64,000 nucleotides of DNA, taken from the NCBI RefSeq assembly GCF_001889605.1, contig NZ_CP018171.1:186001-250000 (forward strand). The letters run 5' to 3'. The notes below the pieces were generated by a model. The model was not told the origin of the DNA. It did not search any database and was given only the letters and a program-made list of their open reading frames with translations. Shown here piece after piece: positions 2,238 through 7,819 of the stretch; position 1 is the stretch's first letter, and every line of letters starts with the position of its first letter. The stretch comes from Aquibium oceanicum (lineage in GTDB: Bacteria > Pseudomonadota > Alphaproteobacteria > Rhizobiales > Rhizobiaceae). The position numbers were made by a program, and so were the translations under genes.

Positions 2238-5200
2238 ATGCGTAGATATTTCCTGGGGGTGGCGGCGGTCTGCGTCATGGCCGGCATCGAACCTGCCCTG
2301 TCCGAGGTGCTCGTACGAAAGGCGCCCCCGGCCGGCTCGGTGATCGCCCGCAAGGTCGGCGAGGAAGCCCGCTTCATCGAGATCTCCGACTGGCGCACCG
2401 TCGAACTCGACCAGGATTTGCTTCCCGGCGACGTGCTGCGGACGAATGCGCTCGGCCAGCTCGCGATCCTCTTCAGCGACCGAACGCAGGTGCGGATCGG
2501 CCGCAACACGACACTGGTCGTCAAGAACGTCGGCGGCACCGGCGATACGCTTCTGGACCTCCAGGGCGGTACCCTGTGGGCGCGCGCCGAGCGCGGCGGC
2601 GAAGGCCTCACCGTCGAGGCCCCGGCTGCCTCGGCCGCCATCCGCGGTACCGACTGGACCATGAGCGTCGACGCAGACGGCCGCACCTCGCTCGTCGTGC
2701 TGGAAGGTCTCGTGGAGTTTTCCAACGAATTCGGATCGGTCAGCGTCGCGGAGGGCGAGGGCGCGGTCGCCTCGATCGGCCAGGCGCCGTCGAAGATCGT
2801 CATCGTCGATTCCGACGACCGCGAGCAGATGCTGTTCCACCTGACGCTGCGCGGCGCGTTTGTCTGGATGCCGGCCTCCCCGCTGCGGGCTCCCGACATG
2901 CGCCAGGAACACGCGAGGCTGACCGCAGTCCCGGAAGCGGCACGCTCGGCGGAAGACTGGGTCACGCTCGCCGAGACCTCGCGCTCCTTCGGCGAACCGG
3001 CATTCTCGCGGTCGGCCGCAGATCGTGCCCGCACGCTCACGCTCACCCCGCAACAGACGGCGCGGCTCGATCTCCTCGATGCGCTGCGGGCGGGCTCCGA
3101 GCAGCGCTACGAGGAAGCCGCTCGTCTCTTCGAGCGTGCGGCACCAAGACTTTCCGGCGCCCGCCGCGCCGCTGCCCTCTACGGCGGCTATTTCGCGCGG
3201 GCGCTTGCCTATCCCGACCGGGTCGAGCAGCCCCCGGCGATAGGCGATGGAGGACCTCAGGCGGCGCTCGCGCAGGCGTGGGCCGCCGGCTTCCTTCGCG
3301 ACATCGCGGCCGCGACGGACATCCTGCGCGAGGCCGAACGGCGGTTCCCGGACGACCCCACCCTGCCGGCGGCCCGCGCGTGGTTGTCCATGCTGCTCGA
3401 CGACCGCGAACAGATGAAGGAGGCGATCGACCGCGCGCTTTCCATCGACCCGGACGACACCACGGCGCTGGAGGCGCGCGCGCATTACCGCGCCGACATC
3501 GAAAGCAATCTCGAAGGCGCCCTCGAAGACCTCGAGCGCGCGGCCGGTATCTCACCGGGATCGTCGACGATCTGGAACGCGATCGGTCTCGTCCAGTCGG
3601 CCCGAGATGCGAACCGCGAGGCCGAAAAGGCCTTCCTGCGGTCGATCGAGCTCGATCCCTACGATCCGGTCGGCTATGCCAACCTGGCGATCTTCTATCT
3701 CGACCATGACCGGACGCGCGACGCGAAGCGGCTGATCGACCGGGCGATCGAGATCGATCCGTCCTTCGACATCGCCCTCGTCGCCCGCGGCCGCTATCAT
3801 CTCCAGACCGGCGATATTGATGCGGCGATCGAGGACCTGCTTGCCGGAACGACGGCCAACCCCGCCTATGCCCAGGGCCTGTTGCTGCTTGCGGGCGGCC
3901 ACTACGAAGCCGGCGAGAGGGAGCCAGCCGAACAGGCGCTGGAAAACGCCGACCGTCTCGACCCGAACGATCCCGTGACCTCCATCGTCGAGACCGCGAT
4001 CGCGATCGACGACTATGATTCGGACCGCGCTATCGCCAGCGCCCAGGAAGCCCTGCGGCGGGCCCGCGCCCGAGGGGGCGACTATTCAACGCTCAGCGCC
4101 AACCGGGACGAAGGGTCGCTGCTCAACAACGCCTTCCGCCTGCAGGGCCTCGACGCCTGGGGCCGCTTCTACGGCGACGCGGTGTTCGATCCGTTCGAGG
4201 GTGCCGCGCTGGTCGACCAGGCCGTCTCCGGTACGTCGGACCCGTTCGTCAACCAGCTGAGGTTTGGCGACAATCCGGTGGAGCCCTCTCCCGGCGATTT
4301 CGGCTTCTCGTCGCTGTTCCAGGGGCTGCTGATGTCTCCCGAGATGCTCTCGGGACGATCGCGCTCGGCAAACCTGTTCCGGCGGCCGTTCTTCGAAGGC
4401 TCCGTCGGTGCAGGCTTCACCGACACGGGCGACGACACCGGGTGGATCGGCAAAGCGGAGATACAGGGATTTTCCACGACGCCGGTGCCGTGGAGCGTTT
4501 ATGCCGAGTTCGACATGCGCGAGACCGACGAGTTTCGCGAGCGCATTGAGCCCGCCGGCGACATCCCCTATGTGGGCTTCGATCTCGGCACGGACATTGT
4601 CTCCGGCCTGGGCTATGCGACCGTACGTCCGACGCTCGACGACCGCATCGTCACCTACCTGAACGTCTCGCGTCCCGAAGACAGGCTCTCCAACGCCCTC
4701 ACCCTGCTCGATCGCCGGGTGTACGGGTTCGACGGGATCGCCTACGACCGCGCCATTGGCTCGGAAGGCATAGAGGGCGGCGTCGGGTGGAGCCACACCT
4801 TCGCCTACCGAAACGTCCTTAACGCCGCCTATTTCGCCTCGGACGTGAAGCAGACGAACAGCGAGGACATTCTCTCCTTCTTCGATTTCGGCCAGGGGCC
4901 GGAGCCGATCGCCCTGCGCGACTACGACGTCTCCGCACGCCAGCGCACGCATGTCGGGGCTTTGAGCCATTCGCTCGGGCTTGGCGATCTCACCCTGCGC
5001 TACGGCGTCGAGGGCGGCACGATCGGAGTCTCCCGCACCGAGAGGCTCTACGAGAATCCGCCCGACAAAGAGACCACCCTTAGTCAGGCCTACGACGTCG
5101 GCTTCGGCCGTGCCTACATCGACGCCGTCTACGAGTTCGGGCCCGACCTCAAGGCGGAGGCGGCGCTGTTCGGGACATGGTTCGGCGGCCCCTTGGACGT

Positions 5201-5927
5201 CGAGCGGTTGGAGCCGCGTCTTGGCGTCGCCTGGGCGCCCGCGCAGGGCCAGTGGCTTCGCGCCACCTACAGCCGCGAGAGCGAGGCGCTGACCACCACC
5301 ACGCTGGCGCCCGTCGCCGTTCTCGGCCTGCAGCCGAACGCGGCTCCGCTCGACGTCGGCGGCTATGTGGACACCTTCGCCGCGCGCTGGGACGCCGAGT
5401 GGAGCCATCGGTTCTTCACCTCGGTCGACTACCAGCACCAGGAACTCTACGGCCTGTCGATCCCGGTTCCGGCTTCGCTCACGCCGATCGGCGCGGGGGA
5501 CGGGTTCGAGGACGGTCGCATCGACCGGATCAGCGCCACCGCCAACCTTCACCTCGGCCACGGTTTCGGCCTGTTCGGCACCGCGGCATGGAGCGACAGC
5601 GAGAACCGGACGACCGGCGCGACCTTCGGCAGCGCCCTGCCCTTCGTGCCGGAACTGTCGGGCCGCGCGGGCATCACCTTCGTGCATCCGTCCAACCTCA
5701 AGGTCACGCTGTCTGCGACCTATGTCGGGGAGCGGGTCGGCGACGCGGCCGGCACGCGTCTGGACGACTACTGGACGGCGGACGCCGCGCTGACGTGGGA
5801 GCCGCTCGACAAGCGCTTCGCGCTCGAACTCGCCGGCTACAACCTGTTCGACGAAAAGTTCGACGCCGCGGCGAACACGCCAGGCTGGGGCCGGTCCTTC
5901 GTGGGGACCTTCAAGGTCCGCTTCTGA
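2238..5927 (+). CDS. FecR-domain / TPR / outer-membrane beta-barrel protein
   Basis: 1229-residue exported protein of unusual composite structure. The start at 2238 gives a signal peptide (MRRYFLGVAAVCVMAG, cleavage probably after ALS). Residues about 40-200 form a FecR domain, with GDVLRTNALGQLAILFSD, the AIRGTDW core and VVLEGLVEFSN. Residues about 250-610 are tetratricopeptide-like helical repeats with recurring IDPDD / LDPYDP / IDPSFD turns. From about residue 680 to the end the protein is rich in alternating polar/aromatic strands and closes with YNLFDEKFD and a terminal phenylalanine (GTFKVRF), resembling the final strands of TonB-dependent receptors. I infer an outer-membrane barrel carrying periplasmic FecR and TPR modules. 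Its stop overlaps the start of the cyclase gene, implying translational coupling and a shared signalling function. Confidence 0.82.
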   Translation: MRRYFLGVAAVCVMAGIEPALSEVLVRKAPPAGSVIARKVGEEARFIEISDWRTVELDQDLLPGDVLRTNALGQLAILFSDRTQVRIGRNTTLVVKNVGGTGDTLLDLQGGTLWARAERGGEGLTVEAPAASAAIRGTDWTMSVDADGRTSLVVLEGLVEFSNEFGSVSVAEGEGAVASIGQAPSKIVIVDSDDREQMLFHLTLRGAFVWMPASPLRAPDMRQEHARLTAVPEAARSAEDWVTLAETSRSFGEPAFSRSAADRARTLTLTPQQTARLDLLDALRAGSEQRYEEAARLFERAAPRLSGARRAAALYGGYFARALAYPDRVEQPPAIGDGGPQAALAQAWAAGFLRDIAAATDILREAERRFPDDPTLPAARAWLSMLLDDREQMKEAIDRALSIDPDDTTALEARAHYRADIESNLEGALEDLERAAGISPGSSTIWNAIGLVQSARDANREAEKAFLRSIELDPYDPVGYANLAIFYLDHDRTRDAKRLIDRAIEIDPSFDIALVARGRYHLQTGDIDAAIEDLLAGTTANPAYAQGLLLLAGGHYEAGEREPAEQALENADRLDPNDPVTSIVETAIAIDDYDSDRAIASAQEALRRARARGGDYSTLSANRDEGSLLNNAFRLQGLDAWGRFYGDAVFDPFEGAALVDQAVSGTSDPFVNQLRFGDNPVEPSPGDFGFSSLFQGLLMSPEMLSGRSRSANLFRRPFFEGSVGAGFTDTGDDTGWIGKAEIQGFSTTPVPWSVYAEFDMRETDEFRERIEPAGDIPYVGFDLGTDIVSGLGYATVRPTLDDRIVTYLNVSRPEDRLSNALTLLDRRVYGFDGIAYDRAIGSEGIEGGVGWSHTFAYRNVLNAAYFASDVKQTNSEDILSFFDFGQGPEPIALRDYDVSARQRTHVGALSHSLGLGDLTLRYGVEGGTIGVSRTERLYENPPDKETTLSQAYDVGFGRAYIDAVYEFGPDLKAEAALFGTWFGGPLDVERLEPRLGVAWAPAQGQWLRATYSRESEALTTTTLAPVAVLGLQPNAAPLDVGGYVDTFAARWDAEWSHRFFTSVDYQHQELYGLSIPVPASLTPIGAGDGFEDGRIDRISATANLHLGHGFGLFGTAAWSDSENRTTGATFGSALPFVPELSGRAGITFVHPSNLKVTLSATYVGERVGDAAGTRLDDYWTADAALTWEPLDKRFALELAGYNLFDEKFDAAANTPGWGRSFVGTFKVRF

Positions 5928-7819
5928 TGCGGCAGCCGTCGGCTCGCCAGAGGCCGCGGCCGGAAAGGGAAATGCGCGCGGCGTCGCCGGACCGCAGGCG
6001 GCGCGCGGTCGCGATCACCGCGGCAATCGCCTTCGCCACGGTCACCCTGCTTTCGCTGACCTCGCCCTGGCGGCTCTTCGAGGCGCGCCTGTTCGACTAT
6101 TTTTCCACTGTCATGCCGCCCCCGCTTCCAGCGGACGGACCTGTCGTCATCGCCATCGACGAACCCTCCTTCGCCGAGCTCGGCCTGCAATGGCCATGGC
6201 CACGCGACGTGCATGCCCGGCTGGTCGAAGCGTTGAGGCAGGCCGGCGCCAGCGCCATCGGGCTCGACATCATCTTCGCCGAGCCTTCGAACGAGCAGGC
6301 CGACGCCGCGCTTGCCGACGCGATGGGGTCCGACGTCACCTTGGCCGCCGACGTTACAAGGATCGAGACGGCGCAGGCCGACCAGGTGATCCGCGTCGAG
6401 CCCATCCCCTCGCTCATCGAAGGCGGCGCGCGGGCCGGACTGTCGTCGATCGTGCTCGACCGCGACGGGACGCTGCGCCGGCTCCCGCCCTATCCGGACG
6501 GTTTCGCCGCCACGATCCTGGAAAGCATCGGCGCCGATGCTCCCGCCACACCCCCGGGCGCGCTGATCCAGACTTTTGGACCATCCCGCACCTACCCCAC
6601 CATCTCCTACTACCAGGCGCTCGATCCGGAGACCTTCCTGCCGCCCGACACGCTCAGAGGCCGCATCGCCATCGTCGGCCTGTCTCTCCAGTCCGCGCCG
6701 ACGGTCGAGGGTGGCGGGGCGGACGCCTATGCCACGTCCTGGACGCCGAGGACGGGGCGGCTCATCGCGGGCGCGGAACTCCAGGCGACGATCCTCGACA
6801 ACCTCCGGCACGGGCTGTTCATCCGGCCCGCCCCCTTCGCGGCCGTGATCGCGGCAAACCTCCTCGGCGCGATGCTCGCGGCTTACGCGGTCTGGGGCGC
6901 CACCGGCTGGCGCACCATCGCCGGCAGCCTGCTCGCCGTCGGCGTGTTCGCGGTGGGCTACTTCCTGCTCCTGCGCTTCGGCCGCATCCACTTCCCTCCG
7001 CTGGGCCCGACGCTGGCCTTCGTGGGAACGGCGCTCGCGCAGGGCGCGCAGGACTACGCATCCGAGCGCAAGCTCAGGAAGTCGGTCACCCGCGCCTTCT
7101 CCCAATACCTGTCGCCGGCGCTGGTCGAAAAGCTCGCCCGAGATCCTTCGCGCCTGAAGCTCGGCGGCGAGAAGCGCACCATCACGATCCTGTTTTGCGA
7201 CGTGAGGGGGTTCACCACCATCGCGGAATCGATGAAGGACGATCCCGAAAAGCTGACAGCGCTGGTGAACCGGCTGCTCAATCCGCTTTCGGAGGCGGTG
7301 CTGGAGGCGGGCGGCACCATCGACAAGTATATTGGCGACGCCATCATGGCCTTCTGGAACGCCCCGCTGGACGACCCCGACCACGCCGTCCATGCGGTGG
7401 AGGCGGGGCTGGCAATGATCCGCGCCGTCGAGCCGCTCAACCGCGAACTGGCGGCGGAAGCCGGCAACGGCGCGCCGATCCGCTTCGCGATCGGGGTCGG
7501 CGTCAACACCGGCGAATGCGTCGTGGGCAACATGGGCTCGGACCGGCGCTTCGACTATTCGGCACTCGGCGACGCCGTGAACCTCGCCTCCCGACTGGAA
7601 GGCCGCACGAAGGACTACGGCACGCCGCTGCTTGTCGGCGATGAGACCGCGCGGCACATCCGTGACAGGATCGATCTCGTCGAGGTCGACCGGATCTCGG
7701 TGAAAGGGAAGGCCGAGGCGGTCACCGTCTGGACGGTCGCTTCGTTGATGGGTGCTCGCCCAATTGCGGCCGTCGAGACCGAGGCTCCGGGAATCGCGAA
7801 CCTGAAGGCGGTTCCCTGA
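5927..7819 (+). CDS. CHASE2-domain adenylate cyclase
   Basis: 630-residue membrane class III nucleotide cyclase. After a basic N-terminus there is a membrane helix (about 25-45), an extracytoplasmic CHASE2 sensor (about 50-300, with AIDEPSFAELGLQWPWPR and GLDIIFAEP), a cluster of about three helices (about 305-385), then the cyclase domain. Catalytic parts are complete: FCDVRGFT (first metal Asp), DKYIGDAIMAFWNAP (adenine-selecting Lys and second metal Asp), and YSALGDAVNLASRLE (specificity Asp, transition-state Asn and Arg). Lys plus Asp indicates ATP rather than GTP. The ATG overlaps the TGA of the FecR gene by one base. FecR-CHASE2 cyclase pairs are known in rhizobia and suggest that an envelope signal is converted to cAMP. 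Confidence 0.92.
   Translation: MRQPSARQRPRPEREMRAASPDRRRRAVAITAAIAFATVTLLSLTSPWRLFEARLFDYFSTVMPPPLPADGPVVIAIDEPSFAELGLQWPWPRDVHARLVEALRQAGASAIGLDIIFAEPSNEQADAALADAMGSDVTLAADVTRIETAQADQVIRVEPIPSLIEGGARAGLSSIVLDRDGTLRRLPPYPDGFAATILESIGADAPATPPGALIQTFGPSRTYPTISYYQALDPETFLPPDTLRGRIAIVGLSLQSAPTVEGGGADAYATSWTPRTGRLIAGAELQATILDNLRHGLFIRPAPFAAVIAANLLGAMLAAYAVWGATGWRTIAGSLLAVGVFAVGYFLLLRFGRIHFPPLGPTLAFVGTALAQGAQDYASERKLRKSVTRAFSQYLSPALVEKLARDPSRLKLGGEKRTITILFCDVRGFTTIAESMKDDPEKLTALVNRLLNPLSEAVLEAGGTIDKYIGDAIMAFWNAPLDDPDHAVHAVEAGLAMIRAVEPLNRELAAEAGNGAPIRFAIGVGVNTGECVVGNMGSDRRFDYSALGDAVNLASRLEGRTKDYGTPLLVGDETARHIRDRIDLVEVDRISVKGKAEAVTVWTVASLMGARPIAAVETEAPGIANLKAVP

Follow-up and report, generated by a model that had tools for sequence, protein, structure and literature searches.

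In this study, two adjoining genes of Aquibium oceanicum, found in a 64,000-nucleotide stretch of contig NZ_CP018171.1 (hereafter the window), were identified as an nsrA-cyaK operon, a version of the surface-to-cAMP pair characterised in the alfalfa symbiont Sinorhizobium meliloti, where the outer-membrane receptor NsrA relays a signal to CyaK, an inner-membrane enzyme that produces cAMP. When gene 1 was compared with plasmid sequences by tblastn, it matched S. meliloti pSymB proteins over 100% of its length with 53-54% identity. The match in S. meliloti ml28 is annotated nsrA and overlaps the cyaK gene after it by 1 base, as in A. oceanicum; the FecR domain and the TPRs of S. meliloti NsrA are located at the same residue positions as in gene 1. 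The signal 1 response of S. meliloti (cAMP-dependent gene expression) depends on both NsrA and CyaK, and overexpression of nsrA sensitises the reporter (PMC7529298, PMC13001267). Ribosomal protein uL2, when added, also has signal activity that requires nsrA and cyaK in that species (PMC7529298). The initial annotation of this DNA, which was made from the sequence, had proposed envelope-to-cAMP signalling; this idea is supported and matches the published work on S. meliloti NsrA and CyaK (PMC7529298, PMC13001267). Because the genetics of the pair have been published in a relative, the system is already known and the envelope-to-cAMP route is not new. The new point is a modest one, namely the presence of the nsrA-cyaK pair in a bacterium without nodulation genes. 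The features of the pair are listed in Table 1.

Table 1. Features of the nsrA-cyaK pair of A. oceanicum, in window coordinates.
Feature	Position	Strand	Basis
nsrA-like gene (gene 1), secreted FecR-TPR-barrel protein, 1229 aa	2238..5927	+	ORF reading; Pfam; ~53% full-length identity to S. meliloti NsrA
Probable Sec signal peptide, residues 1-22 (MRRYFLGVAAVCVMAGIEPALS)	2238..2303	+	Sequence inspection
FecR domain, residues 65-160	2430..2717	+	PF04773, E 9e-14
Helical array with TPRs, residues ~218-611	2889..4070	+	Pfam TPR families; AlphaFold2 helices
Predicted 22-stranded outer-membrane barrel, TonB-receptor type without plug, residues 718-1229, terminal Phe invariant	4389..5924	+	PF00593; AlphaFold2; Foldseek
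Stop/start overlap TGATG	5925..5929	+	Sequence; identical 5 bases in 46/52 relatives, one more locus consistent
cyaK-like gene (gene 2), CHASE2 adenylate cyclase, 630 aa	5927..7819	+	ORF reading; Pfam; 58% identity to S. meliloti CyaK
CHASE2 periplasmic sensor domain, residues 37-313	6035..6865	+	PF05226, E 5.5e-38
Class III nucleotide cyclase domain, residues 417-602	7175..7732	+	PF00211 (Guanylate_cyc), E 4e-21

Gene 1 was read in the window from an ATG at 2238 to a TGA at 5925-5927, giving 1229 aa. Inspected by eye, its N-terminus has the traits of a signal peptide, with a basic n-region, a hydrophobic core and ALS preceding the likely cut. Several TPR families were matched within residues ~387-610 (best E 1e-11, Pfam), and the Pfam family TonB_dep_Rec_b-barrel was matched at residues 814-1203 (E 1.5e-10). 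The AlphaFold2 model of residues 30-1229, built with 41 aligned sequences, contains 22 beta strands at 718-1228 with a mean pLDDT of 74.8; confidence is low to moderate in the FecR region (pLDDT ~35-80). All of the top 50 Foldseek matches are TonB-dependent receptors (E ~1e-14), including PiuA, FptA, FpvA and FecA, with TM-scores that are modest because the 1200-residue model aligns in part only. The last residue is Phe in 41/41 aligned relatives; a C-terminal Phe is usual in outer-membrane barrels. No plug domain was found in gene 1 by the Pfam search. Thus, the ORF, Pfam and AlphaFold2 bear out the earlier claim of a single 1229-residue protein that joins a FecR domain, TPRs and an outer-membrane barrel. 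The C-terminal region, for which a fold other than a barrel had been considered, is predicted to be a barrel, and the product, for which a cytoplasmic location had been considered, is predicted from its signal-peptide-like N-terminus and its barrel to leave the cytoplasm.

The two genes meet at TTC-TGATG with a 1-base overlap, and gene 2 is a complete CHASE2 cyclase gene by its 630-aa ORF and its Pfam domains, as the initial annotation had stated. Membrane helices are predicted by AlphaFold2 at residues ~304-380 of gene 2, after CHASE2, and the order along CyaK is one N-terminal helix, CHASE2, three more helices and the cyclase. With this order, FecR and CHASE2 should both occupy the periplasm. 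D425, D471, K467, D543, N552 and R556 are invariant across 33 homologues and were assigned to catalysis and adenine specification in class III cyclases; gene 2 has the two metal Asp residues, the transition-state Asn/Arg and the adenine-specifying Lys/Asp (K467, D543). The solved structure closest to its cyclase domain is P. aeruginosa CyaB.

A GTDB species-level collection was searched to investigate the conservation of the pair, and 54 NsrA loci were found, 52 of which include the C-terminus. A cyclase lies directly 3' of NsrA in 51 of these 52 loci. Their junctions read TGATG in 46 cases and TAATG in 2, and the remainder have other close spacings; one of these would also fit TGATG, as its alignment stops two codons short. 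In the family survey, an even sample of 121 genomes, NsrA was present in 30 genomes at 31 places, and a CHASE2 gene was located immediately downstream on the same strand at 28 of them. A pair and an overlap kept in dozens of species go far beyond chance. Extra or split NsrA-like genes, with no adjacent CHASE2 detected, were observed in two genomes (G072, at C17:3633-7199, C7:52474-56055 and C14:42707-44008; G054, at C1:1100710-1104293), and these are possibly duplicates, products of decay or contig ends. Outside the family, a profile search of a class-wide sample of 289 genomes gave one further, partial NsrA match. This sole match (L081, G224:C14:28317-30773) sits in a 1536-aa open frame and may reflect transfer or a distant relative. 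Rhizobial-type NsrA genes were also seen in MAGs labelled Arenimonas and Gammaproteobacteria (L029 and L062), labels that seem likely to be binning errors.

Taken together, the best explanation, which we hold with considerable confidence, is that NsrA acts as an outer-membrane receptor that signals through its FecR domain and the CHASE2 domain of CyaK to cAMP and a Crp-type regulator. NsrA would be exported, and its 22-strand barrel would insert into the outer membrane, where the acidic, variable outer loops may bind the ligand. The resulting change would be relayed through the TPRs in the periplasm to FecR at the N-terminus; FecR would then contact the periplasmic CHASE2 domain of CyaK and switch on cytoplasmic cAMP synthesis, and cAMP would act on a Crp-type regulator. 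For A. oceanicum, a contact between FecR and CHASE2 is inferred, as are a ligand and a regulator that responds to cAMP.

The conservation of NsrA is uneven. Mean pairwise column identity is highest in FecR (~0.78), followed by the TPRs (0.66) and the barrel (0.52), which contains very variable stretches near residues 770, 810-850, 870-905, 930-950 and 1070-1090. Read from the alignment, this pattern fits surface loops that may face different ligands, with a fixed periplasmic output. The barrel is also acid-rich (69 D/E vs 41 K/R), in line with the electrostatic uL2-binding idea (PMC7529298). In the partial distance correlation with CHASE2, FecR reached 0.31, the TPRs ~0 and the barrel -0.11; FecR correlated just as strongly (partial r 0.31) with the cyclase domain in the cytoplasm, which means that the co-variation is not interface-specific. 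FecR genes recur beside CHASE2 genes: in the 121-genome family sample, at least 38 of the 81 other CHASE2 genes have one within 4 kb. A. oceanicum itself has a second FecR-CHASE2 operon (L008:6342-9978; G000:C1 ~3602341-3605977), which encodes, in order, a secreted FecR-only protein (175 aa), a CHASE2 adenylate/guanylate cyclase (617 aa) and a DUF3095 protein. A third FecR gene (L009:3609-6023, minus strand) codes for a large protein, also secreted, in which FecR is combined with several domains of Ig-like/glucodextranase-B type. In S. meliloti, the gene next to cyaD1 encodes a FecR protein, SMc02177, that is dispensable for plant-signal perception (PMC5498481), which indicates that a FecR protein beside CHASE2 is not always an input. 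Considering the conservation of FecR, the shared periplasm and the recurrent FecR-CHASE2 neighbourhood, FecR is likely the link to CHASE2, and these patterns are consistent with a direct contact between the two domains.

The barrel may also be a mere anchor, with the TPRs or FecR detecting a cue from the periplasm or from envelope stress and not a ligand outside the cell. Barrel-less FecR-CHASE2 pairs do exist, and a LysM-FecR protein occurs with a CHASE2 kinase in Burkholderia (PMC5192318). However, the response of S. meliloti is triggered through NsrA by an added protein, uL2 (PMC7529298), and the variability of the barrel's outer segments fits a role in recognising a ligand; we consider this explanation unlikely, though the most serious of the alternatives. 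The pair is flanked by genes for a pyridine nucleotide-disulphide oxidoreductase (lpd-like), an EamA transporter and an alpha/beta hydrolase, and further by genes for an exonuclease/phosphatase-family protein, a PfkB kinase and a CBS/BON protein, none of which suggests sigma-factor signalling or polysaccharide export. No sigma-factor gene was found within 100 kb of the pair, the nearest Sigma70_r2 genes being ~120 kb and 266 kb away, and the sole Plug-domain gene of the genome is at 2.2 Mb, ~2 Mb from the pair. This agrees with the earlier observation that neither a sigma factor nor a TonB receptor gene accompanies the FecR domain. It is improbable that gene 1 encodes a transporter or exporter of the outer membrane, whether for TonB-type uptake or for PgaA/BcsC-like polysaccharide export, with no tie to the cyclase beyond a common operon: the barrel is of TonB-receptor type but gene 1 has no plug domain, and the TPR-plus-barrel layout is like that of PgaA but the weak PgaA match spans the TPRs only, no such exporter is among the top 50 structural matches and no polysaccharide synthase is among the neighbours. 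The nearly invariant pairing with a CHASE2 cyclase, and the role of S. meliloti NsrA as a signalling component, also argue against it. A FecR-type cell-surface-signalling part that acts on a sigma factor, with the cyclase incidental, is highly improbable despite the FecR domain and the TonB-type barrel, as FecR follows a signal peptide and is joined to no anti-sigma segment in the cytoplasm, the closest sigma genes are >100 kb off and the FecR-CHASE2 pairing recurs.

For the last step of the receptor-to-cAMP route, the best Crp candidate of A. oceanicum scored 78 bits against Clr (7PZA) and at least as well against M. tuberculosis CRP; it was the one candidate set against the sequence of the Clr structure, and the others were judged by motif. 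One Crp-family protein with a cAMP-type GE...RT motif (L069) is a candidate effector of the pathway and not a clear Clr orthologue. No Clr box was detected upstream of gene 1, and the 23 matches in the window (15.9 expected) are near chance. Promoter and terminator scans gave nothing useful.

The distribution of NsrA was also examined in relation to nodulation. The A. oceanicum genome (5.3 Mb, 100% complete) gave no match to nodC and none to nifH above the curated cut-off. In the 121-genome family sample, nodC is missing from 26 of the 30 NsrA genomes, including A. oceanicum. Six genomes of this sample carry nodC and four of these have NsrA, a slight enrichment (Fisher p 0.03) that involves small numbers and ignores kinship. 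We lean towards the view that NsrA-CyaK is a general surface sensor of the family, not mainly a symbiotic one. On this view, as most NsrA carriers are without nodC, the ligand would probably be a widespread extracellular protein or polycation; the TonB-receptor-type barrel that reads it would have no plug and would be coupled to the cyclase through a FecR-CHASE2 contact, a reusable periplasmic module. A pair studied only in a legume symbiont is now placed in non-nodulating bacteria, and its original role can be asked outside symbiosis. FecR-CHASE2 is likely a periplasmic link that recurs between receptors of the outer membrane and second-messenger enzymes of the inner membrane.

In sum, the pair shares parts with several known systems. 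A TonB-dependent receptor has the 22-strand barrel that is predicted in gene 1, and also a plug domain, which gene 1 does not have. FecIRA cell-surface signalling uses a FecR domain and a barrel of TonB-receptor type to pass on a signal from outside the cell; in gene 1, by contrast, FecR is fused to the barrel and is predicted to be fully periplasmic, with no neighbouring sigma factor and no plug. The PgaA/BcsC exporters have a periplasmic TPR array followed by a barrel, whereas gene 1 has a predicted 22-strand barrel of the TonB-receptor type, a FecR domain and a cyclase partner. In Campylobacterota clusters, a FecR-domain outer-membrane protein, a TPR protein and a CHASE2 adenylate cyclase are encoded together, but the TPR protein has its own gene and a phosphodiesterase is included (PMC9239204). 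In the BiofilmReg operon of Burkholderia, the gene for a FecR-domain periplasmic protein adjoins a CHASE2 sensor gene, but the proteins are a LysM-FecR protein and a histidine kinase, with neither barrel nor cyclase (PMC5192318). Compared with NsrA (SMb20775)-CyaK (SMb20776) of S. meliloti pSymB, the A. oceanicum pair has different flanking genes and a host without nodC and nifH, in which none of the candidates checked was recognisable as a Clr orthologue; the two pairs share the FecR-TPR-barrel order, the adjoining CHASE2 cyclase and ~53%/58% identity.
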